Source: Eutreptiella sp. 'Long Island Sound 2002'
Lineage: Eukaryota > Euglenozoa > Euglenophyceae > Eutreptiales > Eutreptiaceae
DNA: 64,000 nt
Direction: 5' to 3'
NCBI GenBank assembly: GCA_964036045.1
Contig: OZ038382.1
Span: 89,699,795-89,763,794, forward strand
The notes beneath the pieces were generated by a model, which was not told the DNA's origin, did no database searches, and saw only the letters and a list, made by a program, of their open reading frames with translations. Positions 26,294-50,698 of this stretch are shown piece by piece (position 1 is the first letter of the stretch; each line of letters starts with the position of its first letter). The position numbers and the translations under genes were made by a program.

Positions 26294-27643
26294 CTAAAAC
26301 GAAAGCGAAACGAAACGGCCGTGCACCTGCAGGTTTTTGGACCATATTGTTGCTAGCGGGGCCATGTCCAGATCCCCGCATACGGCCATCCTAATCACCC
26401 ATAGGTAGGCGGGTGTGCGGGCCCGTGCAATGTTGTTGAGGAGCCCAATGAATACTTGGGTCCCACTTCCACCGGCGCATGGGTAGGCATCCCCACGGAG
26501 TAGGAGAGTGGGTGGCCGCTTCCAATCGATGGTGGCCACAAGGGGTGCACGCGATTGGATGGAGGGGGCCCACAATTGCAACGGCCAAGAGCGGCCGCTT
26601 GTGGGGGGTTCCGCCACGGACACGGGTCGAGCTAGCGCAAGCGGCTTCCCCAACTCCTTACAGGTGTCCGCCCTTGGGGACATTCAAGTCCATAAGTAGC
26701 CCGATCACTTCAGGCGCCGGTAAGAGGACGGAGGCATATTGCTTCAGGGCATCTATTTGCCTGTTGCGGATGAGCGGGAGTTGGGCAACCTTGGTGGCCG
26801 CGTACCATCGGGCCTTGGCCAAAGGGGATGAGGCTGACCACTCACCAAGGAGTTGAGAGACCAAAAGGGTCCCGCAAACTCTTGGCCCCACTCGAACGTG
26901 TGACCGTCATACTAAGCTGGAGAAGGGTGTCCCAAGAGAAAGGCATAACAAGAGGTACAGTAGGGCCCCATTGAACCCCTGGGCGCTGCACATGAGCGCA
27001 CTGGGGCCTTATACTAAATATCGCTGGTGTCAGCGATCTCCAACCCAAATTGTCTAGCGGAAGTATCCAGCTTTCCGGTGGCTTGCCGGCACACATCGTG
27101 CACAGCATCCACCGGAAAGCGGAAGCGGATGGCCTGCAGGTTTGGATGTAACGAGCGCAACTTATTGTTGACCCGGTACATGCAACCCTAACCTAGAAGG
27201 GTCGCATCAACAACGTTGATGTGGACCACATCTAGGGGGGAGGGAAGCTGCTTCGCCGACGTGGCCCACGGCTGTAGGTGTTCGGTAGGCACTCCTGTGT
27301 ACCCGGCCTCACGGAACCAGTAGGGTGCACAGAGGTGCCTTAGAAAAGCCTCCAAGGCCTTGACACGCGTATGGTCCCGTTGACTGCAGATGTTGGGGTC
27401 ACAGAGGTTCCATTCAAAAAGGGGCTCCTTCCGCACCTCCTTCACACCGTGGGAGTGGTAAATGGGGACTGATGGAAAAACGCTCCGTGTGTGTCCCATC
27501 GTACCGGAGTGGACCCACGTTGTCCCCGACTTTACTACCCCCGCGGTGTTCACTTCGGAGGAACCCTGGGGTGCGCCGCTGGAAGCGCTCCGCTGGAACC
27601 CCCCCCTTCTAGCACAAATTTTGATCACATCTTGGTTTCCCAC
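26294..27643 (-). pseudogene. Transposase-like gene, copy 1 (5' exons only, decayed)
   Basis: Minus-strand coding segments are spread over three frames. They include one ending near 27188 (LEAFLRHLCAPYWFREAGY), one at about 27000-27150 (LHPNLQAIRFRFPVDAVHDV), one at 26658-26800 (QYASVLLPAPEVIGLLMDL) and one at 26310-26683 (PPTLLLRGDAYPCAGG, ARTPAYLWVIRMAVCGD). The last two align with 40565-40710 and 40139-40465 of a second copy, in the same order. Conserved residues include D-Y-PCA, GLLN and ARTPA-LWV. Both copies leave the exon at ...LQ with CTGCAG followed by GT. The 3' exons found in copy 2 (an LHCCMAFGRL-type block) are absent downstream here, so this copy is truncated. Assignment to a transposase rests on the repeat-like copy number and an acid-rich motif layout; no family is proven. 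Confidence 0.55.
27568..27607 (-). repeat. 40-bp intron module, inverted copy of 34316-34355
   Basis: The sequence is the exact reverse complement of 34316-34355: a G run, TTCCAGCGGAGCGCTTCCAG, then CGGCGCACCCC. Near 27612 the minus strand reads ATTTGTGCTAG, a possible donor, so the module probably lies in an intron of the gene at 26.3-27.6 kb. Confidence 0.8.
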
Positions 27644-27749
27644 ACAAAACCTGTTGACTTGACCTAATGCACCCCCAAATGTCTTACACTATGACCCCCT
27701 AGCTAGTACAAATCTTGGCCGTTCCCGGTCACCCCGCCTTTGTGGAGCA

Positions 27750-27946
27750 CTGGGGGGCACAAAAAACGCTGGGACCCCTGCTAGAACCCCCTTCTAGCGG
27801 GCTTCCAGCGACTTTTTAGGCCCCCTTCTAGCGTTGGAACCCCCGCTGGAACCCCCTTCCAGCGCCCCCTTCCAGCGCTGGAAGGGGGTTCCAGCGGGGG
27901 TTCCAGCGGGGGTTCCAGCGCCGGAACCCCCCCTTCCGGCACATAC
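27750..27946 (-). other. Candidate 197-bp intron filled with GGAACCCCC minisatellite
   Basis: On the minus strand it starts GTATGTGCCGG and ends TTTTTTGTGCCCCCCAG, which are good donor and acceptor signals. The interior is about six copies of TTCCAGCGGGGGTTCC and CCTTCCAGCGCTGGAAGG words, which are self-complementary. It lies just downstream of the 549-residue frame, so it would be in a 3' extension of that gene or in its neighbour. Confidence 0.6.
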
Positions 27947-28026
27947 CCCAACTTCACAACAACATGGATTGGGGGCACAAACACATTCAATGTGGATTGA
28001 CTTGTTCAGCACAACATCCTTGCCGA

Positions 28027-29676
28027 TCAACGGCGTTGTCGTTTCAAAAATGCATGACCCTTGCGTGCCACATAGTGACGCAAGCCAATTTGCGTGGTCT
28101 CCATGTTGAGGACATGGCGCAAGCCCCGTTTTGACACACGGGGCTTTTGTAGCGACCATCCACGCATGGAGTTTTTCACCTGCACCTTAAATCGGCGGTG
28201 CCGGTGTTCGGCCGGCACACTTGAAAACAAATATAACGTGCGATATTTGGCGAGGAAGTAGTGGGAATGGGCCACAGTCCAATGGACCCATGGTGTGGGC
28301 TTCCAACCCAACGCTTGCCAACATGTGCCAATGCTTTGGCACAAAGTTTTGGCAGACGCCACCTCAACATCTGTTAGGGGTTCCTTCTTACGCCATAGCT
28401 TTTGAAGTGCACAAAAATCGCGCAAAAAAACAGCAACTAGAACATACATACATACACCGTTGCAAACAATAGTTGGAAAGTGGGTTTGGAGGGCGGAGAT
28501 AAGCCGTTGTTGAAGCCGTGGTCGTTCCCAAAAAAGTCGAGCAGTGCTGATGTCAAACGTTCCCTCCTTTGCCTTTCGAGGGAGAAGCTCCTTGCGCTCC
28601 GCGGCAGGAATAGAGCGGGCCTCATGCAGCAACTCAGCCCAAATTTCATGAAATTCGCGAGCCATGGCACGCTGGCCAACTACACCAACCAACCACGGTG
28701 CAATATTATCAGACAACCGTTTTTTGAAAGCGTTGGTCACTCGGCAAGCACCATGGACCACATCTCCTACCCGACGATCCGTCTTGATAGTGCGCAAGAA
28801 AGAGCCCCAGCGAACATTCGCAAGGACATGATCCAATGGAACTAGAATAGTCACATCGTCACAACACCAACATTTCCCCCCGCCGTTGGTTACTGCCATT
28901 AACTTCCCATCCCGAGACAAGAACACCACAAACCGCCAGGACTCACCATCAATGAACACAGTGGTGTCCCTTTGCAAAGCAACCACTTGTTCATTGAGTC
29001 TGCCAATGTCATCGATAGCCAGCAGACGGACGGCATCGTCCGGCCCATCCATGCACCACCACATTGCCCAACGGGCAATGTGGCCAGCCGCTTTCACCCC
29101 CTCCCCCCAAAAATGGACGAACACGTCCGCTTTGGAAACACTAGTTTTCCACAAAGGGGTTGCATCGGGCACCACAACCACCCAGATGCACTTTTCAGTC
29201 CCATTATGTTTAAAATTCCCCTCCGCTATGGCAAGTTGAACTTGGTTTACCGCCACGTCCTTCAAGTGCGTCACAGCTGCGCTCCTCTGGTGCATGGAGC
29301 CTCCACTGACGGTCAATGCTTCTGCCGTGTAGCGGGTCAACCGTGTCCTCTTGTCGGCAAGGTCGCGTTGCGTGCAATGCCGCGGCAACCGTAGTGTTTG
29401 CCGGATTGAGAGGTTGGAGTCCAAGGCGTACTTCCACACCCGAATGGCGGCCCGGTACGCGTGGCTATCCTCCCCCTTAGCGTCAGCCTTGCTGCGCACA
29501 AACAACCCATCTACGGTTTCTTGGACTAGCGGGGTGTCCTCCACAAGAAGGGCAGCTAGAACTTTGGCGATGTGCCCACGCCGCTCATGTCGGGCACGGT
29601 CCTTCAGTTGGGAATAGGCCGTCAGCGGTGGCAATGAATGCAGAAACGCTGCTACAGCCTTGTCCATGGGGTCCAC
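28027..29676 (-). CDS. Transposase-like protein, 549 residues
   Basis: One uninterrupted frame, the longest protein-like frame here together with family X. The first Met codon sits 6 bp inside an exon whose acceptor is CTGGTCTTTAG (29677), so upstream exons are likely. The middle has VVVVPDATPLWKTSVSKADV and VFIDGESWRFVVFLSRDGKL, then CWCC and GDVVHGACRVTN. Near the end is a block PWVHWTVAHSHYFLAKYRTL followed by LFSSVPAEHRHRRFKVQVKN. This order (acid-containing strands, a CxxC, an H-containing helix, then a late E/H-rich K-N segment) is what I would expect of an RNase H-like transposase superfamily protein, but I cannot name the family. The tail is strongly basic (KRQRR, then TGA). Intact length and one frame suggest it could still be functional. 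Confidence 0.6.
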   Translation of the reverse strand: MDPMDKAVAAFLHSLPPLTAYSQLKDRARHERRGHIAKVLAALLVEDTPLVQETVDGLFVRSKADAKGEDSHAYRAAIRVWKYALDSNLSIRQTLRLPRHCTQRDLADKRTRLTRYTAEALTVSGGSMHQRSAAVTHLKDVAVNQVQLAIAEGNFKHNGTEKCIWVVVVPDATPLWKTSVSKADVFVHFWGEGVKAAGHIARWAMWWCMDGPDDAVRLLAIDDIGRLNEQVVALQRDTTVFIDGESWRFVVFLSRDGKLMAVTNGGGKCWCCDDVTILVPLDHVLANVRWGSFLRTIKTDRRVGDVVHGACRVTNAFKKRLSDNIAPWLVGVVGQRAMAREFHEIWAELLHEARSIPAAERKELLPRKAKEGTFDISTARLFWERPRLQQRLISALQTHFPTIVCNGVCMYVLVAVFLRDFCALQKLWRKKEPLTDVEVASAKTLCQSIGTCWQALGWKPTPWVHWTVAHSHYFLAKYRTLYLFSSVPAEHRHRRFKVQVKNSMRGWSLQKPRVSKRGLRHVLNMETTQIGLRHYVARKGHAFLKRQRR

Positions 29677-29897
29677 CTAAAGACCAGGAATGGGTGCTAG
29701 AACCCCCGCTGGAACCCCCTTCCAGCGTTGAACCCCTGCTGGAACCCCCGCTGGAACCCCCTTCCAGCGCTGGAACCCCCCCCCCCTTCTAGCGCTGGAA
29801 CCCCCCCCCTTCCAGCGCTGGAACCCCCCCTTCCAACGCTGGAACCGCCTTCCAGCACCCCTTCCAGCAGTGAACCCCCCCCCAACCCCTCTTGCAC
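29677..29897 (-). other. Candidate 221-bp intron filled with GGAACCCCC minisatellite
   Basis: Minus strand: donor GTGCAAGAGG, acceptor TTCCTGGTCTTTAG. The interior repeats GGTTCCAGCGCTGGAAGGGG words. It has the same repeat vocabulary as the introns at 27750, 31569 and 33929. Confidence 0.6.
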
Positions 29898-29964
29898 CTA
29901 TTGCGAACCATTCCGTCCCCTAGCACGCTTTGCACAAAGAAAGGCTTGGGACAGTATTTTGGGC

Positions 29965-30022
29965 AATCTTGCAATTCGTAGTTCGTAATTCGTAATTCGC
30001 AATGCGTAATTTGCAATTCGTT
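29965..30022. repeat. AATTCGTA-type short tandem words
   Basis: Degenerate repeats of GTAATTCGTAATTCGCAA, partly self-complementary, lie about 70 bp from the exon end at 29898. Confidence 0.7.
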
Positions 30023-30051
30023 TCATGAAACGACCCCCATACCATGGGACG

Positions 30052-30349
30052 TTAGGAGCATGGACCTCCGCCCGCACTGCAGCACCGGCACACATCGCGC
30101 AAGGCGAGTAGAAGTGCTTTGTAATTTGTCAAAAAAGTCTTTGCCACACAGAATGCAAACTGTGGCCTGAGCGTTAAATCAGTGGATCAAAACATAATAG
30201 TAAAACAGTAGGAGCATGCACCTCCGCCCGCACCGCAGCGCCGGCACACATCGCGCAAGGCGAGTAGAAGTGCTTTGTAATTTGCCAAAAAAATCTTTGC
30301 CGCACAGAATGCCAACTGTGGCCTCGGCGTTAAATCAGTGCATCAAAAC
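30052..30349. repeat. Two direct ~140-bp repeats
   Basis: The segment 30052-30192 recurs at 30211-30349 with about 90% identity; both start AGGAGCATG(G/C)ACCTCCGCCC and run to GCGTTAAATCAGTG. No coding potential is evident. This is the 3' flank of the gene ending at 30465. Confidence 0.85.
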
Positions 30350-30464
30350 TTCCTAAGGGCAACACTGGCAGCGGCAGTCTGGAAGCGAGCATGCTGTACC
30401 AAGCGCATTTGCCCCCAGTGGCCAGACTGACAAACACCGGTACCACCAAACAAAAATAGCCCCC

Positions 30465-31568
30465 CTACTTCTGCTTCTCCAAAATGGTGAGGTACTTGGA
30501 GGACCGCTCCTTCTCCTCCTCCCACTTCTCTCGCATGTGCATCAGCTCACCCTCTACCTCTATCTTCTGCCTCTTGCTATCCTCAAGTGCGTCCTGGAGG
30601 TCCTGTGCTCGCTTCTTTGCGGCCTTTGCCTGACTCTTGGCTACGGCCAATTCATTTTGAAGCTTCTGCATTTCACGGGTGGCCCGGGTTGAGGACTCTG
30701 TCTTCATGGCCTCACGAACTGCCGCGGGCAGAATATCCCGCAATGTGGACTGCACATTTCCCTCCAACGTACGCATCACCCCATCCGAAATGCCACGAAC
30801 CATCTCCTCCATGGTGAAGGGGATTGGGTCGGGGGTCGCTGGTGGGGCTGTGACCTTCGCTGGTGGGGCTGTGACCTTTGCTGGTCCCTTGCCCTTTGGT
30901 GCGGGCTTTGGTGTGGCCCTTGGTGTAGACCCCTGCTTGACAGCGGTCCTCCCCTTGGGGGAACCCTCAGACTTCACAATCTCAGTATCATCAGCCTCAT
31001 CATCGACAACCATGGGGTCAGCCTTGTACCCCCGCCCTGTCAACGGTTCAGCCACCCGCTCAGCCACCCAATCACCGACACGAGTCTGGACGTCGGCTGG
31101 AACCCGTGCACCACCGACACCGCCAAACCGCTTCAAAGAGTGCCAAACCTCCCACTCATTCGCCTCAGCATCCCACAATTGATAGGTGTATGACTTGTGT
31201 TTCGTTGCAGTGGCAGCAGCACACAAAAATAACTCGGGCCGTGATGGATGACGCAGGTCTGTGATGCGCAAAGGCAAATGCAAAATCAGCACACGTGGAG
31301 GCTGCGTTTTAACCCGCAAACTTAGGCACCGGTACCAATTAGTCTGCCCCTTCAAAAACAAGCTCTCCGACCAATCCTCGGGACTCAAAGAGGCTGTTGG
31401 TGGCCACGTAATTGGCTGCGTATCCACTTGCCCACCGATCTCGCTGGACACCGCCTTGGGCTTCGCAACCACACCCGTTGATGAAACCGGAGCCCTGGCT
31501 GTCTCATCGGCCTCCTCAGGGGCACTGCCCTCCGTATAAGTCACTGATGGCCTGATGTCCAGTGTGGC
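30465..31568 (-). CDS. 3' exon of the dioxygenase gene: linker plus C-terminal coiled coil
   Basis: The exon starts after acceptor CTTGTACCTCAG (31569) and encodes about 367 residues to TAG. An acidic N-terminal part and a WYRCLSLRVKTQPPRVLILH segment come first. Then come a proline/lysine linker with a duplicated APPAKVT, a short helix (FTMEEMVRGISDGVMRTLEG), and a final ~75-residue coiled coil rich in K, E, A and Q (MQKLQNELAVAKSQAKAAKK) ending in ILEKQK. This looks like an oligomerising C-terminal tail. The frame also stays open upstream through the minisatellite (to 31793), but that part is repeat translation. Confidence 0.6.
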   Translation of the reverse strand, partial: ATLDIRPSVTYTEGSAPEEADETARAPVSSTGVVAKPKAVSSEIGGQVDTQPITWPPTASLSPEDWSESLFLKGQTNWYRCLSLRVKTQPPRVLILHLPLRITDLRHPSRPELFLCAAATATKHKSYTYQLWDAEANEWEVWHSLKRFGGVGGARVPADVQTRVGDWVAERVAEPLTGRGYKADPMVVDDEADDTEIVKSEGSPKGRTAVKQGSTPRATPKPAPKGKGPAKVTAPPAKVTAPPATPDPIPFTMEEMVRGISDGVMRTLEGNVQSTLRDILPAAVREAMKTESSTRATREMQKLQNELAVAKSQAKAAKKRAQDLQDALEDSKRQKIEVEGELMHMREKWEEEKERSSKYLTILEKQK

Positions 31569-31795
31569 CTGAGGTACAAGGGGAGGATGGTCAATTGAGT
31601 AGGGGGATGGAATGCACCGCTGGAACCCCGGTACCCAACTGCTAGAACCCCCTTCCAGCGCTGGAACCCCTGCTGGAACCCCCGCTGGAACCCCCTTCCA
31701 GCGCTGGAACCCCCCCCCTTCCAGCGCTGGAACCCCCCCTTCCAGTGCTTGAACCCCCTTCCAGCACCCCTTCCAGCAGCGAACGTGGGACAAAT
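31569..31795 (-). other. Candidate intron filled with GGAACCCCC minisatellite
   Basis: The acceptor CCCCTTGTACCTCAG is clear at 31569. The donor is uncertain; GT dinucleotides near 31780-31797 do not give an obvious in-frame join with the exons on both sides. The interior holds the TTCCAGCGCTGGAA palindrome several times. Confidence 0.5.
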
Positions 31796-32527
31796 TTCAT
31801 TCTCGAAACGACACCAAACAGGCAAACGTAGTAATAAACGACAGTAGTGGTCGGCTACCTGCTGGCATGCGCACCAGTACTCGCCTGCCTCCTTGAGATT
31901 CTCCACCACTAGGCCTGCCTGCACTAGGATCATGGGGTCAACGACGTTTGGGGTCTCCAGTGGTACTTGATCCCATCGCAGCACGCGGAGTTCATCACCA
32001 TCTGGGTCCCCACAATAGGCCGTACCGCCAAATCTTCCCGAGCGGATGACCAGGATGGTGCCGGGGTTTGTTCTGAGCAGTGGGTAGCAGGCACTAGGTT
32101 GTGGAAGGCGCTCCTCCTCGTGGGTGTGTGGACCAAAAGGGCACTTCTCCGGGAGGCATGGTGTTGCTTCTACGTCAACGGGCTGTTGCGAGGTGATGAA
32201 CTCCGGAGGTTGTGGTAGGTGCTGTGTCAAGAGGACAGTGTTTCCGAGCGGCATGAGGCAAGTGGCGGCGAAGCTGCACACAAAAACGTCTCCAACAGAT
32301 GCTGCAGAGCCTGCAGAGCCTTGTGATAGTCCACGAAGGGGTGAATCCGGAGGAGGTGCTTCAAAGAGTTCGGGCGTGGGGGCAGTAAGTGTGGCGTCGC
32401 AGACTGAACAAGTACCGCTTGCATGGTTGGGGCACAGTGGGACCTTCTGACACATGAAGCATACGTACGGGGGCTGTGCGACATTCTTGCGGCAACCGGA
32501 ATGCCCACAATTCACCGAGTCTTGCAC
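31796..32527 (-). CDS. Cys-rich zinc-finger-like segment of the dioxygenase gene
   Basis: The frame begins after a candidate 43-nt intron with VQDSVNCGHSGCRKN. It holds a compact cluster: C-x4-C, C-x2-C (YVCFMCQK), LCPNH, then C-x2-C (GTCSVC), with spacing typical of small treble-clef or B-box-like zinc binding. A long loop-rich part follows, with FVCSFAATCLMPLGNTVLLT, a second group of Cys/His (CLPEKCPFGPHTH) and GTAYCGDPDGDELRVLRWDQ. The end (EYWCACQQVADHYCRLLLRL) runs into the minisatellite intron. The family is unknown; zinc binding is inferred only from spacing. Confidence 0.5.
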
Positions 32528-32570
32528 CTCCGATTCGGCATAGGCCCACGGTTGGGGGGGAAATGGGGAC
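32528..32570 (-). other. Candidate 43-nt micro-intron (or homopolymer frameshift)
   Basis: Minus strand starts GTCCCCATTTC and ends GAATCGGAG. Removing it joins ...HYNNT to VQDSVNCGHSG in frame. A C7 run inside it offers the alternative of a single-base sequencing or evolutionary frameshift. Confidence 0.45.
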
Positions 32571-33010
32571 GGTGTTGTTGTAGTGCACGTTGTAATTTGC
32601 CAGCGCAATGAAGGCAATTATGCGAGGAGTGCCTGCAGGCAGCCCAACGGGAACAGCTCCTCCAGCGTGGATCAACTCCGACGAGAAGACGGTCATATCC
32701 CCAACCTCCATATCCATCGGGCACTCGAACCAGGGCTTAGGCACCCCCTCATGGGACAATGGCACGTATCTACCACAAGAGGCGTCGGCCGGGATGTCCA
32801 CATTGCACGGCACAAATACTGAAAGGGCTCGGCCCTTAAATTTGTGTGTCAAGGGGCGATCGCGGTGCCAGTGTTGCTGCCTGTTGTTTGTTGCCCGAAC
32901 ATAGCCGGCCCGAACAACCACAACATCCTCGAAGTCCTTCACCTTTTGAATCTCCCGCTGCACCTCCTTTGCAAGAGCCTCCAAAGCAGGCAGGTCGTAC
33001 CCCTCTCCAT
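32571..33010 (-). CDS. 2-oxoglutarate/Fe(II)-dependent dioxygenase-like domain
   Basis: About 146 residues carry the double-stranded beta-helix signature. They include QQHWHRDRPLTHKFKG with the H-x-D metal pair, SVFVPCNVDIPADASCGRY, a turn MEVGDMTVFSSELIHAGGA with the distal metal His, and GTPRIIAFIALANYNVH with the Arg that binds the 2-oxoglutarate carboxylate. The layout resembles phytanoyl-CoA-dioxygenase-like proteins. Relatives of this fold oxidise small molecules or modified nucleic-acid bases; the substrate here is unknown. Catalytic residues look intact. It is joined upstream by a candidate 41-nt intron and downstream by a 43-nt one, so it forms part of a larger multi-domain protein. 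Confidence 0.72.
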
Positions 33011-33051
33011 CTGTAGTGGCAATCCCAAACGACCGTAGCAGGCACTTCTAC
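33011..33051 (-). other. Candidate 41-nt micro-intron
   Basis: Minus strand starts GTAGAAGTGCC and ends TGCCACTACAG. Its removal joins ...RAQDSP to DGEGYDLPALEAL with a codon completed across the join, restoring one frame into the dioxygenase domain. Confidence 0.6.
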
Positions 33052-33928
33052 CGGGGCTGTCTTGTGCACGGCCTGGAGCCGGCGCATTGTCGTTGAAAAT
33101 TGATCCCCACATCTGGCCCGGAATGGTGAGGCACTCGTCCTTGGCGGCACTGTGGACCGGGGAGTCGACAAAAATACCACGGTAGCGGCAAAGCCCAAAG
33201 TCCGAGATGGCATTGGGGTTCTCGTTCGTGGCGGTACCAGTTGCAGGGCCAGGAACAACCTTCTCGTTACTGCCAATCAATGGAAGGGGGTGACACATAG
33301 GAAAGGGTAGGAAGGGCTCCGCATCGGTAGTGGACATCATGGTGGGAGTGGTAAGGCCAAAGCGGTCGTCAGGTTTCCAGTGCACTTGCTTGGGCGTGGG
33401 CAAAGAGTAGATTGGGATCTGCCTGTGTGCGTCTTTGAGGGAGAGGAAGCGGAGCGTGTGGGTGGTCGGTTGGGGGAGTAAATAATTGTCCTTGCCCAGC
33501 TTCTTGCTCGTGGGGCGCCTCCTAGCAAAGAGGACGTCACCGGACTGGTCGTCCCCCACATGGAGCTTCACAGTGCCGTTGGAGTCGGTGGGGAGCCTGC
33601 AGGTGATGCTGAGGTTCAAATCCTCTTGGTCCTTGGGGGAAAGGGTGAACTGGAAGATGGGGACGTGGGGGTTCTTGCCCATGACCTCGGCGATGTAATC
33701 GCTCACCACGCGCGGCTGCCTGTCATGCATGATGGACCCCTTGACGTGAACACGACCAACGGTGGTGGTGGGCTTGAAAATAACGGCGGCACCTGTGGTT
33801 GCGGCTGTGAGGGATTCTAGTTCACAACCAACAGGGGCTGCATATCCACGCGTCCCCACGAAGCCCTTGGCCTTGTCAAACCATGATGCAAGGACCGGAA
33901 AGTCCGACCACTTCATGATGAAGCTATG
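33052..33928 (-). CDS. N-terminal exon of the dioxygenase gene, unknown domain
   Basis: The exon starts after acceptor TTGTTGTGTCAG (33929) and encodes about 290 residues. Recognisable features are FPVLASWFDKAKGFVGTRGY, a beta-rich stretch (PIFQFTLSPKDQEDLNLSIT) and a Pro/Thr-rich linker. It ends LTIPGQMWGSIFNDN before the 41-nt intron. I do not recognise a domain. The run of sense-like codons in one frame over 290 codons, and clean joins at both ends, support it as coding. Confidence 0.6.
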
Positions 33929-34191
33929 CTGACACAACAATGTGAGAAATGTGGTGCACGCATGAGGGCGGTGGATGTACTGCGCCTAGGGGATGTAGTG
34001 TGCCTAGAATCGGTGCTGGAACCCCCGCTGGAACCCCCGCTGGAACCCCTTCCAGCGCTGGAACCCCCCCCCTTCCAGCGTTGGAACCCCCTCTTCTAGC
34101 GCTGGAACCCCCCCCTTCTAGCGCTGGAACCCCCCTTCCAGCGGAGTGCTGGAAGGGGTTCCAGCGGGGGTTCCAGCGGTTTTGAACCTAC
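33929..34191 (-). other. Candidate 263-bp intron filled with GGAACCCCC minisatellite
   Basis: Minus strand: donor AAG|GTAGGTTC (strong) and acceptor CATTGTTGTGTCAG. Inside, words such as GGTTCCAGCGCTGGAAGG run in both orientations. Confidence 0.65.
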
Positions 34192-34278
34192 CTTAAATTA
34201 AGCACCCGGGCAACGGCACACCTTGTTTCCACCACAAACGAACACCATACACAACATATTTGCACCCCGAGTGAATGT
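34192..34278 (-). CDS. Short internal exon of the dioxygenase gene
   Basis: An 87-bp exon between acceptor GGTTACCATTAG and donor AAG|GTAGGT. It encodes HSLGVQICCVWCSFVVETRC... in one frame; the true phase is uncertain. It is supported by splice signals on both sides and by flanking introns that share the minisatellite words. Confidence 0.45.
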
Positions 34279-34315
34279 CTAATGGTAACCTCCACCCACC
34301 ATGTGTGCCAAAATG

Positions 34316-34355
34316 GGGGGGGGGTTCCAGCGGAGCGCTTCCAGCGGCGCACCCC
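34316..34355 (+). repeat. 40-bp intron module, inverted copy of 27568-27607
   Basis: Exact inverted match to 27568-27607, lying within a candidate 89-bp intron (34279-34367, minus strand: GTGGGAAGCGG...ACCATTAG). Confidence 0.85.
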
Positions 34356-34367
34356 ACCGCTTCCCAC

Positions 34368-34560: not shown

Positions 34561-35829
34561 GGAGCGCTGTAGCTTCACCCACCCCCCTTTCCTCCCAAGG
34601 GAGGAAGCACAGTTCCCAATGGGACCCCCGCATCAAGGCCCCCCGCGGGCCCGTAAAAACTATGGCTTGCGTCGAATCCCCGGCACCAATTGGTTCGGGG
34701 ATGCGGTCTTCGCGGCAGGGGTTTCGATGCCCATGCCCCCCCTATGTGCCCCCCGCACCCTTGTTGCGGATGTGGTGCCGCGAAAGGTGGCGAAATGCGC
34801 AGCGCAGCGTGATGTATGTCACCTCGGGGCTCGAAAACGGGGGGGCATCGGGGGAGTACCCACTGTCAAGCGCTTCTTGCACCCAGGGGAGGGTCAGCAC
34901 GTTGCGCTGGTTAGCGTGGCTTAGAGCCATGCATGGCCGCCGCCCCCCCCCCCCCTCAACCACGGGGTCACAGCCCCCCCCCCCCCCTTCCGTCCTCCAC
35001 TACCACGTGCTCCATCTCGGCATTCATGTCCTTGATGTCGGTCGCGGCATCCACCTCCTTCACACCCCTCCCCCCCGCTGCCTCCTTCTTCTTCCTCTTT
35101 ACCCTCCTTCTTCTTCTCCTTCTTCCTCCTCTTCCTCTACCTTAGGAGGCCTTAATTGCCCGGGGGGTGGGGGGGGGGGGGGTCTGCGAAATGAAGGCCA
35201 TTCATGGGGCGGAAAAAATGGTGAATTACTACCCCCTAATTGCACACAGCGCACAACGTGTGAAGTTTTCGATTGAAATCATGCCGCATATTGTCCGCTT
35301 GGCCCTTTTTGCCTGCAATTGAGGACACTCGCAAAGGATCCAAAATAGGCATTCAAATTCAAAGAAATAGCACTCAAGGACAAATTGCATTTTCCACTGA
35401 AGGGTTTCTGTTGTGTACAAATGACAATCTGTGAAACAGTACACTAAAGCATGGTGAAACAGACCACCATTTTCAGGGAATTTCAATGAGACGCGAAATT
35501 TCGCCATATTTGGCAAAAATGCAGCATAATGAGGTATGAAATACTGTCAGTGCATTGCCTGCTTGCCACAGTACACGATTGATACACAATATCACAAACA
35601 TACAATTGGATCCATAAGGAACTCTTTATAATCAATCAATACACAAACATACATCACAGAAACTACCAAATGTTGCCTACAAAAGGCGATTCCATGTGCC
35701 AACACCCACAAAGGGTGAGTCAGAATAAAAAATCAAATAAAGTAGGACGCAAATTAAAATTCAAGTCAACTGCTGAGAGGATGGTGGTTCTGCAGTCACC
35801 AATGTCTCATCATAGCGGTGAACAGCAAC
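34561..35829. other. Homopolymer-rich and AT-rich spacer, no gene supported
   Basis: Contains C runs at 34946-34958 and 34971-34988, a CTTCTTCTC tract (35085-35140) and a G run at 35161-35180. The 18-mer GGAGGCCTTAATTGCCCG at 35145-35162 recurs inverted at the edge of the element near 38520. A GACGCGAAATTTCGCC word at about 35480-35500 belongs to the set found in 36-38 kb. Long plus-strand frames here are compositional. Confidence 0.6.
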
Positions 35830-42354: not shown

Positions 42355-42368
42355 TGACAACACCAAAC

Positions 42369-42472
42369 GTTCTAATTGTGTTCTAATACAGGTGTTCTAC
42401 GCGTGTTCTAACAAAAAACGTGCCGGCGGTCGTTCCCTTTTGTTAGCACTTCGTTAGAACGAATTCGTTAGT
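42369..42472. repeat. GTTAGAAC/GTTCTAA word cluster, right
   Basis: About six GTTCTAA/TTAGAAC words and GTTAGAACGAATTCGTTAG lie in the upstream intron or flank of the lysine-rich gene, ending next to its acceptor. Confidence 0.8.
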
Positions 42473-43210
42473 ACAAAGACATTGGCTATGGAAGCCCTTC
42501 CTTGCATTGCTACACTCATGGAGAGCAGCAAGCACTCAGATTCCTTCGGTGCCATTAGCTTAAACGGCCCAAGTTGCACCCCCCCCCCCAAAAAGGACCC
42601 CCGACAAAAATGTCGCAGCTGATGGTCATCAAAAACGCGTCCTAGAGGGGTGAAATTTTGGCAACAAGCAGCGCACGTCTGTTTCCGCTCGTTTTTGACT
42701 ACCCCCATATACGTTTTTGGCACTTTGCGCACAACACCAACTTGAGGTTGGGCCATGTGAAATATGAGGAAAACAGTCAAATTTTGAGGAGGAACCCCAC
42801 GGAATGCATGTATGTCTATGCACGGTTCAATATCACTACACCAGCGGAGGCACTACTCGTCGACACATACCATTTTCATCAAAATTTGTTCTGCAGTCAG
42901 TGAAACACTGAAGATTGTGTCGAAACAGACAGGTCTCACCAAAAACCTGCTGCACAGGGACAAAAATCGCAAACAGTTGTCTGGTTCCAGACACACGACG
43001 CGTAACCTGGTGAAAAATTGCTGTATTCCACAAAAAGAACTGTGGTCCGCAACCAAATGACATAAAAAAGTGATAAAGGAATGTGAGTCTTGTTTTGGGA
43101 AAGGAAAAGTGCCAAAACAGGCCACTAGGACCCAGAGAGCGGACTGGCACGCCAACAGGGTGCCACAGTGTTTATATGTTATGAATGGATATCGTGGTCA
43201 CTGAGCAGGC

Positions 43211-43821
43211 TTACAACAACAGTGTGCAACCAACAGCAACTACAACAGAGCACGTTGAATTCTTTTTGGAGCCATTGAACCGGTCCTTCCATGCCTGAAA
43301 CCCAATCTTGGCCTTCTTGGAAGCAGACGACCGAGAATCGGTTGCCGCAGCTGCAGCTTCGGTGACAGGTGATGCCTGGGCTTTTTTGTTGCCTTTGCCT
43401 TTTGACTGTGATCCGGAGGCTCTGTTCTCGTCTCTTTTGCGTGTGCGACCACCTTTTTTGCCAGGGCCCCGTGACTGCTTCGGTGTACCATATACAGCGT
43501 TCTCTGGGGTGGCGCCCACCTCTTTCACTTCCTCCTCAGACTCCTGCTCTCCCTTTGCCTTCTCAGGCACACAGCTGCAGTCCACAGGGCAACCCTCCGC
43601 CAAATTTTCAAACACTGCATCTAGGGGATAGGGCTCAGCCCATCAGCGATGCGTAAATTGCTACACACGAGGGCACCAACGTCTGCAATAGACTCCTGCT
43701 CCGTGGGCAAACCCAAAACCACACTGATGGGTACCGGCATGCACACTGCCAGACTGCAGGCCAGCTGTACAGAACTACTGATCACCAGGTACCGCCAGGT
43801 GGTGCATGACAAATCCAACAA
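43211..43821 (-). CDS. Basic low-complexity 3' exon (possible end of the ParB-like gene)
   Basis: The minus frame after a TATCCCCTAG acceptor-like site (about 43622) reads FENLAEGCPVDCSCVPEKAK, then an acidic EESEEEVKEV-like part. It ends in a long K/R/S/A-rich tail (GKKGGRTRKRDENRASGS, KKAKIGFQAWKDRFNGSKK). Upstream, 43640-43821 reads YLVISSSVQLACSLAVCMPV in another frame. The tail looks like a nuclear, nucleic-acid-binding extension. Confidence 0.45.
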
Positions 43822-44026
43822 CCTCCGTAAACAGCTGGTTCACCATGGGACCACGAGAAAAGGCAAAGTAGCGAGGCACCTGTATAAGGGAACAGTGAGT
43901 CTGAGACCCCTACTGGTGCAGCTGGACTGGCCGATGTCCTGTGGTTTCCAAACAGCTTCCCACAATTTACCCTTCTGAGGACGCATTCTGCCTCATACGT
44001 GTTTGGTTCTAGACAAACTTTGGGAT

Positions 44027-45088
44027 TCAACGGTGCACACAACGTGACTGTGGTAGCAGGCAGCATGTCGCAACAGCTGACAGCGACACCTTCTTGGGCA
44101 GCGGATTTTTGGAAACAATCCACAGCTCAGTGAATCCCATCGAGTATTGCTGTGTGAGAGATCCCAGAATAAAGCAGGCCACGCAAATTGTTGTCAACCC
44201 CTCGTTGTTGTGCAACTTTCGGAGACCATCCAGCACTCCCAAGACGTCACAAGCGGCGCCAACAATGAGAACGAGCGTCCCAGACACCAAATTCCGGCTG
44301 ACAACGGAATGGATGCCTTCCATATGTCCCTTTGGAACTTCAACAATGATCAGGCAATACGGCATGTTGGCCACCGTAGAGGGCACCGGCGTACCAGATG
44401 CTATCCCAGTGATATGCATGACTCCATTCAGCCGCCTCTGGGGCCTCAGACCCATGTTCACGGTGATGAAGTTGACATCAGCAGCGATCTTGACCTCAGG
44501 GTTCACAAGGGGACGTTTCAGGGCATCACGGAGGGGAGCATACGTGGGGTCACTCCAGATTGCAGCAGTGACGACATACTTCCAGGGGGGCCAACAGTTC
44601 TGCTCAAACCATTTCCAATTCTACGTCTTGAAGGTGACATGGGTCTTCGACAAGAGACTCTGTTCACAACGGGCCCGTTCTGCAAGCGGTTTGCGACTGG
44701 GGTCAACCAGGTCGTTGCCCGGGTGGCAGAGATGATGTTCCCAGAGACGTGCAGCCTTCACTTGCTTTGCCTTTTTTGTAATCATTGGCAGTGACACATT
44801 GCTGGAGCCCATGTACTGCGTAACCTCCTCGAGGTTTGATGGGATGAGGCCTTCGATGCATTTCCAAAAGTGCAACTTTACTGGCGGTCCAGGCTTTTCC
44901 AATCCATCGACAGCAGCCACAGCCTTATCCCCCATCACTTGCACCCAGGCGGCTATCGGAAACCAGGCTTTTCTGACAGTGTCCTGCAGAGCAGACAGAG
45001 GTGTCAGCAGACACAATAGGAGGAATTCTGCTTCGACATGCTGCATCAGTGAAATGTTGTGTGGTTCCAGACACGGAGGTCCACGCAC
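44027..45088 (-). pseudogene. Methyltransferase-like segment with one in-frame TAG
   Basis: A single frame of about 350 codons is broken only by TAG at 44621. Before it: LEKPGPPVKLHFWKCIEGLI, EEVTQYMGSSNVSLPMITKK, RLWEHHLCHPGNDLVDPS. After it: NWKWFEQNCWPPWKYVV, VNFITVNMGLRPQRRLNGVM, YCLIIVEVPKGHMEG, TLVLIVGAACDVLGVLDGLR and FTELWIVSKNPLPKK. The IIVEVPKG stretch followed by a late tEL-ivsK motif is reminiscent of N6-adenine methyltransferases (usually DPPY-like there), but the key residues are not canonical. It probably belongs with the ParB-like part at 46.9-47.5 kb on the same strand. Confidence 0.45.
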
Positions 45089-45374
45089 AAGCTTTGACAG
45101 TGATTAAAAAGTTGTGTCTGGTACCAGACACAAACAGGAGGAATTCTGCTATGACAGGCCGCATCAGTGAAATGTTGTCCGGTTCCAGACATGGAGGTCG
45201 AGGTACAGGCTTTGACAGGGATAAAAAAAAAGTTGTGTCTGGTTCCAGACACAAACAGGAGGAATTCTGCTTTGCCAGGCTAAATCAGTGAGTTGTTGTC
45301 TGGTTCCAGACATGGAGGTCCTGGCACAGGCTTTGATAGAGATAAAATTACATCACGTGTCTGGTTCCAGACAA
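45058..45374. repeat. Palindrome cluster: six GTGTCTGGTTCCAGACAC sites, ~60-bp spacing
   Basis: Sites start at 45058, 45114, 45175, 45235, 45297 and 45357. Between them two spacer types alternate (AAACAGGAGGAATTCTGC and ATGGAGGTC...), giving a 120-bp dimer. Several sites have a matched or single changed arm base. Confidence 0.9.
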
Positions 45375-45390
45375 CTGTGACAGCCTTCGT

Positions 45391-45408
45391 TTAGGGTTAG
45401 GGTTAGGG
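45391..45408 (+). repeat. Interstitial telomere-like (TTAGGG)3
   Basis: Three perfect TTAGGG units preceded by T. They directly abut the start of a diverged satellite B copy (CACCGAGCTGG). Confidence 0.85.
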
Positions 45409-46535
45409 TCACCGAGCTGGTGGAACCAGTCTTGGTTTTATAACCCTTTTTAGTGTCTAGGGTGGACCTACCAAGTTTAGCAGCAAGCAAGCAAGCAGCA
45501 GGCAGCAGCACGCGCGAAATGGCTAAAAATCAGAACTCCGTCGTGGTGCTTTGGATTCTGGTGAAATTTTGGTGGATGATACCTATGGGTGTGAAGTACA
45601 ATCACATAAAGGTTGAGCAAGAAACTCAACGGTGGCGGCCGGGAACGGGATTCGCAAGTGGCAGACCTCAGTTGCAAGAACTGCAATTTGGGGCCAAAAA
45701 CAGCCATATCGGGCCAAAAAAGCCCTGGAACACATTCAAAACGGCCGAACGAAGGGAAACGGTGGGTACACCCCACGTGCGGCTTGACTTCCCCGTGTCA
45801 ACGAGCTCTTTGCAGCCCTCTAACTCCATGATATGTCCCGGAAACGGCCCCAAAAGGCCCCCAAAAGCTTCAAATGCCGACAGCCACAAACCAAGAACAG
45901 GCCATATATTTGGCTACATGGCTCAAAATGCGATTCCGAGGGCACCTACTGCACGCGCAATCCCCTACTTTTTGTGGTTTGCACCCCTCAGAATTGCCCA
46001 AACGGACGCCTAGACCACAATACCTAGGCCCAGTAGGCTGCGGCAAGCTGCAAGCTCAAGCCCAAACAGGTGGGTGCCCAAATGGGTCCGCAGGGTCCAG
46101 TAGGGGCAAAAAGATGATTTTTCTCAAAAATGATCCTAGACCATGTGCGACGCTAAAACAAGTGTTTTGGACCGTTTTGAGCTTGTGGTGGCGCATTTTG
46201 GTCCTCCGAAAATCCCAAAATGCCCTGAAAGTAGGCTGTTTTGGGTCCAAAAATGGGTCAAAAATGGGTCAAAAACGCATTCTTCCAAACCTCATCCTAG
46301 ACCATTTGGGGTGCACCAAGGGATGAAATGAGCCCATTTTGAGCCCATTTTGGGGCATTTTAGCCCCTCAGAAGTCCAAAAAGCCTTGAAAGTGGGCCTC
46401 GTGGTGATGAAGTTCAGTTGCAAGCTGATTTCACTTTGTCAAGAGGCATCAATGTGTGAATCATTCTTGATGTCCCTCACCAGGCATAGCTGTTGTTCCG
46501 TCCCCCACCAGCTCGGTCCCAATATTCAGTCTTGA
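45409..46535 (+). repeat. Diverged satellite B-related segment between telomere-like repeats
   Basis: The left end follows satellite B (ACCGAGCTGG..., ACC...TTTTAG, AGCAGCAAGCAAGCAAGCAGC). The right end (CCAGCTCGGTCCC...CAGTCTTGATTA) matches the CTAGGACC hairpin region. The centre is an unrelated stretch with repeated AAAATGGGTC words and no gene I can support. Confidence 0.6.
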
Positions 46536-46551
46536 TTAGGGTTAGGGTTAG
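46536..46551 (+). repeat. Interstitial telomere-like TTAGGGTTAGGGTTAG
   Basis: The second TTAGGG run, same orientation as 45391-45408. It overlaps the GATTA of the satellite B hairpin end. Confidence 0.85.
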
Positions 46552-46790
46552 TTGCATGGGACAACTTTCCTGGCCGGGACGCATGTGCACATAGTTCCTG
46601 TATTGCCCCCCTGTGCAACACCGGGCATACCAGTGTCCCCTCCTTCAGTGTATAGCCACCCTTCACGTACAACACTCCCAGGTGTTCTCGTATGGATTTC
46701 TCCTCCAGTTCATCGCGGTCCAGCTCGACACGCAGGAGTTCCATCCGTGTAGACAGCTTCGGTAGGGTCGTGGCAGACTGCACAGGCTGT
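46552..46790 (-). CDS. Possible exon of the ParB-like gene
   Basis: The minus frame reads LPKLSTRMELLRVELDRDEL, EEKSIREHLGVLYVKGGYTL, LVCPVLHRGAIQELCAHAS and runs into the telomere-like repeat (NPNPN). Helix-rich composition and position between the ParB-like and methyltransferase-like parts suggest it belongs to the same gene. Confidence 0.4.
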
Positions 46791-46929
46791 GATGCGGCGG
46801 ATGGTCACAGCAGTTTACCCCCCCCCCCCCCACGAAGCGGCCAGTCACGCAGGAGAACGGGCAGGTCGTGACGGACGTACAGGCGCAGGGTATTTCACTG
46901 GTGTGGGCATGCGGTATCACAGTGCATTG

Positions 46930-47451
46930 TCACAGTCGATATTCTTGTGACATGCCAGCGATTGACTCCCGTATGTGCAGAGTGACGTCCGTACGAACCA
47001 CCTGAGCAAGAAATTGCATTGACCATGTCGGCGGTTCAAGATGGGCATTCATATACTCCCGTGAGATTCATCGACAGGCCTCGGCGATATGCTGCCCCGA
47101 TAAGATCCAGTACTGCCCCACTGCGTCACGCCACACTATGATTCGGATTTTTCCTGCACCTGCTGGATTCCTGCGTAGTGCTGTCATCTTGTCCTGGACA
47201 AGATCCTCATCCGGCACTCTGATTTGGCCATGCTCCCTTTTTTTGTCCCATTGTAGTCTACTGAGGGGTAGCCGGACCTCTTAGTCTTCAGTATGGTCAC
47301 CAAGTTTCACTTGAGCATCTTTCCCCTTTGCTGTGTCACCGAGTTTCCGCTTGTGCTTGGAGGGGGCATCGTCCACGGCACTGAATTGGGATGCCAGATC
47401 AATTGAGGGGTCTGCAAAGGGTTCAATGCTACCTTGTGTAAGATCAGACAT
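46930..47451 (-). pseudogene. ParB/sulfiredoxin-fold-like domain, decayed
   Basis: The start ATG gives MSDLTQGSIEPFADPSIDLA, then a lysine-rich stretch and an in-frame TAA (47281). The frame goes on with WDKKREHGQIRVPDEDLVQD, KMTALRRNPAGAGKIRIIVW, GQYWILSGQHIAEACR, TGA, YMNAHLEPPTWSMQFLAQVV and LHIRESIAGMSQEYRL. The IRIIVWRD...WILSGQH-x2-A pattern fits the GQHR-type motif of ParB-like nuclease or partition domains. The stops argue for a pseudogene or missed introns. Confidence 0.5.
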
Positions 47452-47602
47452 GTTGGAACCAACTGGGCACAAAACGCAAAATGACACAAAGGCAGGCCTT
47501 TTAGCAATGTGCTTCTAACTTTCTAGGCTTGCCGACGTGAGCATACCGTTTTCACACTCAGACCACATCATGTGCAATACACAGGGGTGTAAAAAACACA
47601 GG

Positions 47603-48209
47603 CTGTCTGGTTCCGGACACAACAGTTTGCTTTTGGAGTGTGCGACCGGTGTGTAACAATTTAATGTCTAGTTCCAGACAAGCATGTATTGGTCTGGCAA
47701 TTGACACGGCATAAACAGTCAGAGTCTGTTTCTAGACACATTTGCAGTCCAATTCCGAGTTAGCTGGCTACCCAATGTGATTCTAGCCTTTCCCAAAGCA
47801 GAGGAGATGACGTTGCAGGCAATGGAGGGCACAACACGAAGTCTGTCTGGTTCCAGACACAACAGCTTGACTTTAGCAGATGGCATGGGTGCAAAACCAT
47901 TAATTGTCTGGTACCGGACGGCTACGGTACTTCTGTGGGCACTAGAGGGGATACAAATAGTTGGTGTCCGGTTCCAGACACACATGCATGCAGTGTTTAT
48001 TGTGCTGGCTTCGTAAACCGGGTATTCGGTTGGTGAGGGTCACATGCCGTGGTTTTGCGGTGAAACAGGGATGTACAGCAATGCAACAGTGCACGTACGC
48101 GCGCATCTCATCAATCCAGCACTGCGTTGGTTGACATTAGTGGCCCCTGCGGGAGTACCCCGACGCTGCTGTGGTAGCCAACTCCAGCCCTGTGTCTGGT
48201 TCCAGACAC
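47603..48209. repeat. Palindrome cluster: seven GTGTCTGGTTCCAGACAC-like sites
   Basis: Starts at about 47603, 47664, 47722, 47843, 47904, 47964 and 48192. Spacing is 58-61 bp; the 121-bp gap holds a decayed site near 47782, so the phase is kept. The cluster lies between the family X gene and the ParB-like gene. Confidence 0.88.
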
Positions 48210-48245
48210 ACACCTTTGACGCGCCCTGGCCACTTCGGCGGGGTG

Positions 48246-48452
48246 TCAGCAGTCCATTGAGTCATCCTCCGGGCTCACAACCTCATACTCCTCCATTTCT
48301 TGCAGTAGGACAACAAGTGGTGGTTCATCATCCTGTGCGTCCACGTCCACTATCAAATCCCCCACGGTCCGGTGTGAACTTGAATCCGAAACAATTGCAG
48401 CTTCCGGGTCCTCATCGTCATCATCTGCTAGCGCAATTGCTGCGTCCCGCAC
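48246..48452 (-). CDS. Acidic C-terminal tail of the family X gene
   Basis: The minus frame reads RDAAIALADDDDEDPEAAIV, then GDLIVDVDAQDDEPPLVVLL and EMEEYEVVSPEDDSMDC before its stop. It lies 40 bp downstream of the TGA that ends the long family X frame; an intervening block in another frame (AETPASMQAEMHRLSV) suggests short introns or indels joining them. Confidence 0.45.
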   Translation of the reverse strand: MRDAAIALADDDDEDPEAAIVSDSSSHRTVGDLIVDVDAQDDEPPLVVLLQEMEEYEVVSPEDDSMDC

Positions 48453-48494
48453 ACGCTAAGCCTGTGCATCTCGGCCTGCATGCTTGCGGGGGTC

Positions 48495-50368
48495 TCAGCC
48501 TGGAACAGTGGTTCTCAACAACCGTGAGACCGCATCGGTGGGCGAAAGCGCTGCACCTGTCAATGTGGAGAGTGATCTAGTCAACAGTCTCTGGTACGGG
48601 GCCACTCCGCCGTTGTCCAGCTGTTGCCCTGGGAATGTCAAGTCCTCAGGGACAGCGGTGAATGTTGCCTTCTTTCCTCTGTTCCATTCAACATGGACCA
48701 TGCGCTTCGTTGTAATGGCCAACAGGAACCTGCATACCCGCGACGACATGATCGCAACCAGTCCACTGCGGATCTTCCCCCGCGTCTTCTTTTCCCCACG
48801 CTTTGGTGGTGCCATGCTCAAAAACAGGTCCAATGTGTGGTCAAAAGTCTTCATCTTGGGGAATGCGCGGCACCTAGATCCGCGACGACTCAACATGGCC
48901 TCCAGGGGCTCCTCAACATGACAACGGCCCGGGACGGCGTCATTCCAGGGTAACCACAACAGAAGGGCAACACAAAGGGTGCGTACGTAGGGGACAATAC
49001 CGTCGGTGTCCATTGTCAAGGCTACAATCAATACCAAACTCAACTCCAATACTTTGCGGGCCGTACGGCCTGTTCCTGCTCGTCGACCATCCCAGTTGCA
49101 GTCCCGAACCAAGTTTCCAAGGAGGAACGCAGCCGGATTGTAGAAGTGCAGGAGGTTCTTCAGTCCAGTCAACCATACGAGCGGTAGCTTGCGGGATGCC
49201 TCTGGAAAGTGCATAATTGAAGTCTCCTTGTGTACAATGCGGTCCTCAACGTTGGGTGTGGCTAACAGTAGGGCACAAAATCGCTTCTCAATGTGCAACA
49301 GCTTCGAGTGGCACATGATCTCTTCATCTACTGCGGGCATTTGGTACCCAATGTAGCGCAATATGGGGAAGAACTTACGGTGGATCATGGTACACACATA
49401 CTTATAAGGGTGCCAGCAACCATACAACATTGGGAGAGTGGCATAGTGCTCAGACAACTTAAAGGGGTTGTATGTGCGACTGTAGATGAACTTGGCGAGT
49501 CTGTAGAATATATTTTCATCCATCAGAAGGGGCATGACGTGGCGTGTGTGAACCTGAATGGCTAGGCATTGTTCCATGATGTGGAGCGAATCCTCATTGG
49601 AGCTGGAGACCAGGTCGGGTAGCGTCAGGGGGTACCATTGCAGTGAATGAATGCTGTCCCGGTGCACATCTAGTGGAACTCGTACGTATTGGGCCTGTGG
49701 TGGATCTCGCCTCAAAGCGTCCACCGCTCGTGGGAACTCCCGGAAACTGGCTGCTATGGTCTGTGCTGTTTGCGGGATGCGTTGGAGAAGATCGTCAAGT
49801 GTAGGGAAACCCGGGTACATAGGAATCGCAGTTGTATGCAACACTGACATGGCAGTGACGTTCAGACAGCAATCAGGTCGTACCGGGTCACTGCAGTACC
49901 GTCTGCGATACCAGTTGTCAAACTGCACCACCACCTGCTTCCCTGCCATTGATCTCCAGATGGCGTTTGTTCTGGCATGTGCCTGTTGCCCCAAAGGCGG
50001 TAACCGGCCCGCGGCAAGACCTGCATGTGACAATTGGATGCACTTATCATTGAGCCAACAGCCTTTTCCTCTGGCAGAGCCATCTTCCGACACAGTTGCA
50101 TCATCGTGTACACCTGGCGTGCAAACACTCCATACCACCTTGGCCACGGTGTTTGCCCATGAGCTTTGGTCAACGTTGCCATACTGCGTCTGGTTCGCCG
50201 GTTGACCCTCATCGGTGCGCAGAACTCCACAAGCACGTTTGCACCTGGTTCCTCATCGCGTAAAGCGGCATCCATAAGCTCCAGCGGTGTACCATACTTC
50301 GCACCACGCAAGAAGTCACGCAGCAGACCAAAGGTACCTGTCGCAGCACTAGTCACCTGGCTCATCAA
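48495..50368 (-). CDS. Family X protein (unknown, element-encoded), longest copy
   Basis: The N-terminal frame (about 50040-50368) starts MMSQVTSAATGTFGLLRDFL and contains CAPMRVNRRTRRSM, WYGVFARQVYTMMQLCRKMA. The main frame (48495 to about 50045) continues with SHAGLAAGRLPPLGQQAHA, VVVQFDNWYRRRYCSDP, LNVTAMSVLH, PMYPGFPTLDDL, then about 400 residues with CHVEEPLEAMLSRRGS and KRGEKKTRGKIRSG, ending LLRTTVPG-TGA. The frames differ by one base. A possible 23-nt GT...CAG intron at 50020-50042 would join them. A shortened paralogue at 37443-38047 changes frame in the same direction at about the same place. The function is unknown; association with palindromic repeats and duplication suggests a mobile element gene. 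Confidence 0.6.
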
Positions 50369-50448
50369 CAGTGGAACAGAACCAGACTAAACGAAACGGT
50401 GAACAACAACGAAACAGACCTGCTCAGTGACCAGAGAATTGGTGGACA

Positions 50449-50698
50449 GTGCCTGAAACCAGACACTGTTCACTCAAATGAGGATCTGAATCACAAAATT
50501 TCAGCAAGATGTCTGGAACCAGACACGTTCTCCATGTTATGCGGGTGTACATAGGACGTATGACACTCGGGACAGACACCTGGTGACCCCCCCCTCAAAG
50601 GTTGAAAATTGTTTAGTTTGTGTGGAACCAGACACTGTGACCTCAAAAACTGGTTGTGACAGGGGTGGAATTTCAAAGAGTGTCTGGTTCTAGACACT
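50449..50698. repeat. Palindrome cluster: four GTGTCTGGTTCCAGACAC-like sites upstream of family X
   Basis: Starts at about 50449, 50509, 50619 and 50680; spacing 60, 110 and 61 bp. Three read in the opposite half-site orientation (GGAACCAGACAC). A single outlying site is at 42978-42993. Confidence 0.85.

Follow-up and report, generated by a model that had tools for sequence, protein, structure and literature searches.

To our knowledge, which rests on a narrow check of the open-access literature, the VANDAL transposons of Arabidopsis are the one group in which a sequence-specific mechanism of anti-silencing, acting through motif arrays, has been elucidated. Other mobile elements also carry repeated sequence: CACTA/En-Spm and similar elements repeat short protein-binding words near both ends, and introners, or intron-forming transposons, place repetitive sequence inside introns. 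In the VANDAL system, PMC5735166 locates the VANC21 signal in non-coding DNA, namely in introns, between genes and at the element ends, where the motifs form tandem repeats that differ from one copy to the next. The same report and PMC10398659 describe different motifs in related VANDAL families. TET/JBP genes have been found in fungal transposons (KDZ, Plavaka), according to PMC12730594. Here, we analysed a stretch of 64,000 nucleotides from the euglenophyte Eutreptiella sp. 'Long Island Sound 2002' (contig OZ038382.1, positions 89,699,795 to 89,763,794), hereafter called the window, in which two DNA transposons, designated A and E, and the neighbouring units B, C, C' and D each carry their own short palindromic words (Table 1).

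Palindromic words of transposons A and E

A first-pass annotation of the window had proposed that such words are local to gene neighbourhoods, and scans of the whole window bore this out for five word families, each confirmed at the place where it had been described. The A word, TTCCAGCGCTGGAA, occurs at 15 sites with at most two mismatches, all of them between 27826 and 34116 and none elsewhere. Sites of the E word, TGTCTGGTTCCAGACA, with up to three mismatches are confined to 42916-50681; four sites are found at four mismatches, three of which lie outside this interval. The C word, GTTCATAATT, has 11 sites with at most one mismatch in 38745-40946, plus four strays elsewhere, and the D word, GTTAGAAC, has four exact sites in 40987-42453 and numerous one-mismatch sites elsewhere. 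The B word, GCGAAATTTCGC, has four sites with at most one mismatch in 35493-38238, with looser matches scattered, and a second B word, GCGTCTCA, has four exact sites in 35487-38248. A GTTC/GAAC core is common to four words (A, C, D and E, window 26-51 kb), possibly by chance or through a common type of DNA-binding domain.

The locality of the words was also apparent from shared 8-mers, which among 18 gaps of five units reached 13.3 times the expectation within units and 1.7 times between units; the gaps were drawn and assigned to units by hand, B includes one near-duplicate gap pair, and the exact factor is not to be over-read. The annotation had suggested a shuffle check, and this check, run for 8-mers on the 18 gaps, gave a higher sharing within units with p = 5e-5, which is the floor of 20,000 shuffles, none having reached the observed value.

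The best-resolved word-bearing units are separate DNA transposons and not host genes. Transposon A has copies elsewhere in the genome, some whole and some internally deleted, with ends at the bases corresponding to 27567 and 34356. A target site duplication (TSD) of 2 bp was found in six of the eight copies examined, none being visible at loci L010 and L015; that of the window copy is CC, at 27565-27566 and 34357-34358. Gene A2, probably a transposase gene in view of its copy number and place, has 20 database relatives, the best cluster comprising 34 members. The reading frame of gene A1, which gave a PhyH match in Pfam (E = 1.1e-6), is broken in the window copy. PhyH in A1 was the only match above the cut-offs among the proteins scanned against Pfam; the proteins of A2 and of E2, the probable transposase gene of E, gave no match in Pfam, and alignments of these two proteins gave none in a sequence search of the PDB.

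The words of A form four arrays, one in a GT-AG intron of A1, one between the two genes, and two in the ends of the element. Both donor and acceptor of the intron are present in the window copy and at loci L006 and L009, and the donor alone at L007. All 15 A words of the window lie outside coding sequence, though coding sequence accounts for 71% of A. The words are regularly spaced, with 57 of the 60 distances of 10-120 bp (ten loci) falling at 21-25 or 43-45 bp. In four copies, the array core of the intron measures 165, 252, 232 and 188 bp, and array growth by tandem duplication is consistent with these differences.

Transposon E has no detectable similarity to A. Its 5-bp TSD is exact in eight of nine copies, and in the ninth (L037) four of the five bases match; the ends of the copies at L033 and L036 were placed by eye. 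Gene E2 is represented by 31 database proteins, the window's own included. Coding sequence amounts to 49% of E. Of the 173 E words with at most two mismatches in ten aligned copies, 171 fall outside it, and the remaining two both belong to L036, which carries an inverted segment there. Over 15 loci, 124 of the 176 distances under 400 bp between neighbouring words are of 57-62 bp. The gap of E1 at 43643-44026 contains a single word, at 44000. The window copy is interrupted by a later insertion: base 45391 is joined directly to 46547 in seven fetched copies (L026, L028, L032, L034, L035, L037 and L038), L028 displaying the uninterrupted insertion site.

The description of the words as palindromic and non-coding is upheld. 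The words are not confined to introns, however: the intron holds one A array, but the other three A arrays lie between the two genes and in the element ends. The annotation had also taken one gene as the unit of a word. As one word covers more than one gene in A and in E, the unit is not the gene.

Spread of the words with transposon copies

The 2.28-Gb genome of the window was searched for exact words, with reversed patterns as controls. The A word was found in 668 places (control, 0) and the E word in 618 places (control, 1). Among the 668 places, 50 were listed, which by our own count form 19 clusters, all on contig C1 and none of them in the window. All 19 clusters were fetched, revealing A in nine, a 79% relative in one, and members of a family designated A' in nine; L017 and L023 were assigned to A' by the similarity of their gene A1-type proteins and by 80-84% DNA identity to the A' locus L011. 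For the E word, 14 of the 26 listed clusters (own count) were fetched, mostly those with several words, and all 14 hold E. In viral contigs, there was one exact match to the A-type word (L001) and none to the E word. The A and E words hence belong to transposon families, whose copies have carried them to new loci. The annotation's statement that the word goes with the locus and not with the protein family is not borne out, and its proposed process, in which one palindrome spreads through the introns of one gene, is replaced for A and E by the movement of transposon copies. More generally, the private words are best explained as belonging to transposons, with at least A, E and B being separate DNA transposons in close proximity.

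One mechanism that had been put forward for such spreading is local gene conversion, or hairpin-templated insertion, within one locus. The intron array of A and the array upstream of A2 do have common borders and are approximately 94% alike. However, in four A copies the likeness of the two arrays was 0.936-0.948 within the same copy, while that between different copies had a mean of 0.947, so that arrays of the same copy are no more alike than arrays of different copies. As both arrays are, in addition, already present in A', this mechanism is unsupported and barely credible as the origin of the words.

On both sides of the A copy at L007 (C1:46.72 Mb), the sequence resembles E by eye and exact E words are present. 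This copy appears to be nested within an E copy, which would be useful for relative dating.

Change of the word between related families

The A' transposase is 43% identical to that of A, and A' exhibits the same word in the matching places, upstream of A2 and in the intron. The blastn matches shown between A and A' are confined to the arrays, and the A' locus L011 has an end that differs from the terminal inverted repeat (TIR) of A at 2 of 18 bases. A word can persist while more than half of the protein sequence changes.

A third family, A'' (P0048), has 91 genome matches, and its proteins are 35% identical to those of A and 31-36% identical to those of A'. Its array lies immediately upstream of the same gene and has the same architecture as in A (GGAA, a run of G, TTCC). 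Its word, however, is TTCCTGTGCAGGAA, with the half-site TTCCTG in place of TTCCAG, so that the half-site has changed wholesale upstream of the matching gene. TTCCTG is found at 14 of 16 half-sites at L040 and 11 of 14 at L042, or 25 of 30 over the two arrays. At L041, where the array precedes a 70% relative of P0048, seven of nine half-sites are TTCCTA, and a partial tail at L039 has one TTCCTG and one TTCCTA. By comparison, TTCCAG accounts for 12 of 13 half-sites in A and for 6 of 9, 6 of 8 and 10 of 11 in three A' copies. A change of both arms of the palindrome across a whole array is the behaviour that the binding site of a dimer would have as its reader changes. Related units with different words are also observed for C versus C' and for B versus E, as for A versus A'', whereas A and A' have the same word.

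Proposed function of the words

Based on this anatomy, we consider it probable that the family-specific palindromic arrays are putative binding sites for an element-encoded protein and work like the anti-silencing motifs of VANDAL/VANC. Each transposon family would carry its own palindromic word, in regularly spaced arrays in the ends, intergenic spaces and introns of the element. The word would most likely be bound by a dimeric protein that the element encodes, and dense arrays would let this putative protein mark, or act on, its own family alone. We infer that such marking most likely keeps the element free of silencing, as VANC does for VANDAL. The arrays would be enlarged by tandem duplication, and the word and the protein would change together.

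The parallel with VANDAL concerns three features: arrays of short family-specific motifs in introns, between genes and at ends (the intron being recognized by splice signals in A alone), gain and loss of array length between copies (here, four A copies), and motifs that differ between related families (here, the three pairs named above). In contrast to VANDAL, the elements described here are TIR transposons with TSDs of 2 and 5 bp, their words are long palindromes with regular spacing, and no MULE transposase match was obtained in Pfam among the open reading frames (ORFs) and relatives scanned. As the anatomy matches that of VANDAL and the proteins do not, we propose that the arrays work like the VANDAL system, not that they are one. 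A has a 2OG-Fe(II) oxygenase-like gene beside its transposase-like gene, a feature similar to the KDZ and Plavaka transposons with TET/JBP genes, but the domain of A matches PhyH and not Tet_JBP. The TSDs of A and E also differ from the 8 bp given for Zisupton. In comparison with introners, most words lie outside introns, and C and C' appear, on weak similarity, to have a common gap position with different words.

In a more far-reaching version, which we regard as a tentative possibility, unrelated transposon types within a single large genome would each have evolved a private code of palindromic arrays throughout their non-coding DNA, read by an element-encoded dimer. In this version, the 2OG-Fe(II) oxygenase of A would possibly serve the element as an anti-silencing effector by demethylating DNA, and with the splitting of families the code would switch on the two half-sites alike throughout each array. 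Demethylation by the product of the adjacent oxygenase-like gene may be an attractive candidate for the effector of A. If the anti-silencing reading is true, VANDAL-like anatomy in two mutually dissimilar transposon types of another genome, with its hundreds of words and its related families of changed half-site, would suggest that private codes recur as an answer to host silencing. Related families that differ by TTCCAG versus TTCCTG would then be natural pairs in which to study how a DNA-binding protein changes jointly with its sites, of which there are dozens.

Several observations weigh against an anti-silencing role. No VANC-like or Tet_JBP match was obtained in Pfam among the ORFs and relatives scanned. 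E words in ten copies are not conserved above random 16-bp non-coding blocks (0.879 versus 0.872, with 1729 of 5000 random sets reaching the value of the words), in a test that is weak as many copies have broken frames; the same words exceed the spacers within 22 bp (0.831), and coding sequence stands at 0.893. The regular spacing in E is partly that of a tandem repeat (45008-45373): one of the E arrays consists of a 121-bp tandem repeat, so part of the regularity stems from duplication, and a faint 120-bp similarity was seen by eye within the E array at 47.6 kb. The comparison with A'' comprises three short upstream stretches (801, 301 and 306 bp) and one tail, and thus upstream arrays alone. 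Some compensated arm changes occur in A. Finally, the TIR of A contains half-sites of the word, which is also compatible with plain binding by the transposase.

This plain transposase-binding role is the main rival of the anti-silencing reading. The words would be transposition sites only, at which the transposase assembles its complex, and the internal copies would be an overflow of subterminal repeats; arrays at both ends of A and E, in addition to the half-sites in the TIR of A, are in line with this, and CACTA-type elements have similar subterminal repeats. Nevertheless, the words described here also occupy intron and intergenic gaps, where the arrays equal the terminal ones in richness, and the word is absent from the TIRs of E and B. 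Moreover, internal deletion has removed the internal arrays from copies such as those at L015 and L016 but left the ends in place, so the internal arrays seem unnecessary for spread. An exclusive role in transposition is therefore, in our view, rather unlikely.

The arrays could also be neutral minisatellites, generated incidentally by slippage and local duplication as non-coding DNA evolves rapidly, and inherited by copies without function. The variable array length between copies, the unexceptional conservation of the E words and the 121-bp repeat at 45 kb would all follow from such an origin. It would account less readily for the retention of word, places and array architecture from A to A' at a transposase identity of 43%, for the joint change of most A'' half-sites, and for the occurrence of the same pattern in several families, and we regard it as quite improbable.

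The palindromic nature of the words, the array inside the GT-AG intron, the compensated changes in A and the covarying hairpins of unit F (20.4-23.8 kb, see below) could point to a role at the RNA level, with hairpins in introns and flanks pairing so as to aid splicing or to fold transcripts. Changes in the arms were nevertheless predominantly uncompensated, with 4 compensated versus 266 uncompensated in E, 10 versus 132 (central palindrome) and 64 versus 475 (looped form) in A, and 4 versus 101 and 39 versus 492, respectively, in A', the cells of the A and A' counts not being independent owing to relatedness among the copies, the partial repetition of L007 at L003 and the overlap between looped pairs. 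Selection for intron-intron pairing, which the annotation had offered as a cause, or for hairpins is accordingly not supported for E and weak for A. Most arrays lie, in addition, outside introns, which leaves an RNA-level role very improbable. The anti-silencing reading thus remains the one that we prefer.

Neighbouring units and other repeats

The features of the window are listed in Table 1.

Table 1. Transposons, word-bearing units and their parts in the window
Feature	Position	Strand	Basis
Unit C', homologous to C, with words of TTAAT type; seems to be broken at 27567 by A	25200..27566	-	Similarity; words by eye; boundaries approximate
Transposon A, whole element, 6790 bp, two minus-strand genes	27567..34356	-	Copies elsewhere start and stop at the same bases; 2-bp TSD
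A left TIR, 40 bp, with two CGCTGGAA half-sites	27567..27606	+	Inverted match to 34317-34356
A word array, 3' end of element	27780..27940		Word scan
Gene A2, transposase-like (from copy number and place in element)	28027..29667	-	Database relatives, alignment
A word array between A1 and A2, immediately upstream of A2	29696..29876		Word scan; arrays at the same place in A' and A''
Gene A1: N-terminal region, PhyH-like 2OG-Fe(II) oxygenase, Cys/His-rich stretch, C-terminal region	30465..33918	-	PhyH match, ORFs, relatives
Predicted GT-AG intron of A1, centre occupied by word array 31641-31781	31569..31858	-	Splice signals, from sequence
A word array upstream of A1	34015..34180		Word scan
A right TIR	34317..34356	-	Inverted match to left TIR
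Transposon B, related to E but carrying another word (GGCGAAATTTCGC)	35141..38533	-	TIR 35142-35162 / 38513-38533 resembling that of E; window copy alone
Unit C: transposase-like gene, GTTCATAA words in both flanks and in intron-like gap ~39996-40138	38745..40960	-	Word scan, similarity; ends not fixed
Unit D: stretch at 41.26-42.35 kb flanked on each side by GTTAGAAC words	40987..42474		Word scan
Transposon E, TIR CTTARACGGCCCAAGTTGC (26 bp), 5-bp TSD (ATTAG in window)	42559..50971	-	TIRs and TSDs
E words, left end	42916..42993		Word scan
Gene(s) E1, function not assigned, in-frame stop	43211..45043	-	ORFs
E word array with six words at intervals of ~60 bp; in part a 121-bp tandem repeat	45058..45373		Word scan and repeat analysis
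Later insertion in E, 1.16 kb, TTAGGG repeats at both ends	45392..46546		Comparison with fetched E copies
E word array between genes, immediately downstream of E2	47604..48208		Word scan
Gene E2, transposase-like (from copy number and place)	48245..50372	-	Database proteins, alignment
E word array, right end	50450..50696		Word scan

B has CTCTAC on both sides and contains a fragment of an E-like transposase (tblastn, 2.5e-8). The transposase-like genes of C and C' are 46-49% identical, and the gap between their similar parts holds different words. The gap of C was called an intron because the similarity to C' breaks off at the matching position and is taken up again past it, though weakly (E = 0.026); no splice acceptor was detected for this gap. 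The first-pass annotation had presented these two genes as transposase-like paralogues with a common intron position and different words; their homology and the difference in words stand, whereas the common position depends on that weak similarity.

Unit F (20529-23694, with copies at 4660 and 5239) has an almost invariant AGAAAGCCTA core, flanked by complementary arms whose sequence varies among the copies, in a hairpin with a 9-bp stem, a bulged A and an AAAGC loop. In nine chosen copies, six of the nine pairs were changed on both sides and 93.8% of cells were paired, a value reached by none of 500 shuffles. The pattern GNNNNGAGAAAGCCTACNNNNC is found in 1002 places in the genome (reversed control, 5), with perfect 5-nt arms in 12 of 15 matches among those listed with letters. 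In contrast to A and E, unit F therefore looks like a selected or copied hairpin. A scan of the window with Rfam gave no match at the gathering thresholds.

Outside these units, ORFs resembling those of retroelements are found at 51333-53235, with an RVT_3 match under its cut-off. Positions 1-3845 correspond to a minisatellite composed of several palindromes (GACGGATGTATGTCCGTC, GGGGGTCTACACCCCC), and repeats of approximately 600 bp, many of which carry a GGACGATCGTCC palindrome, occupy 4000-20400 and 54100-55150.

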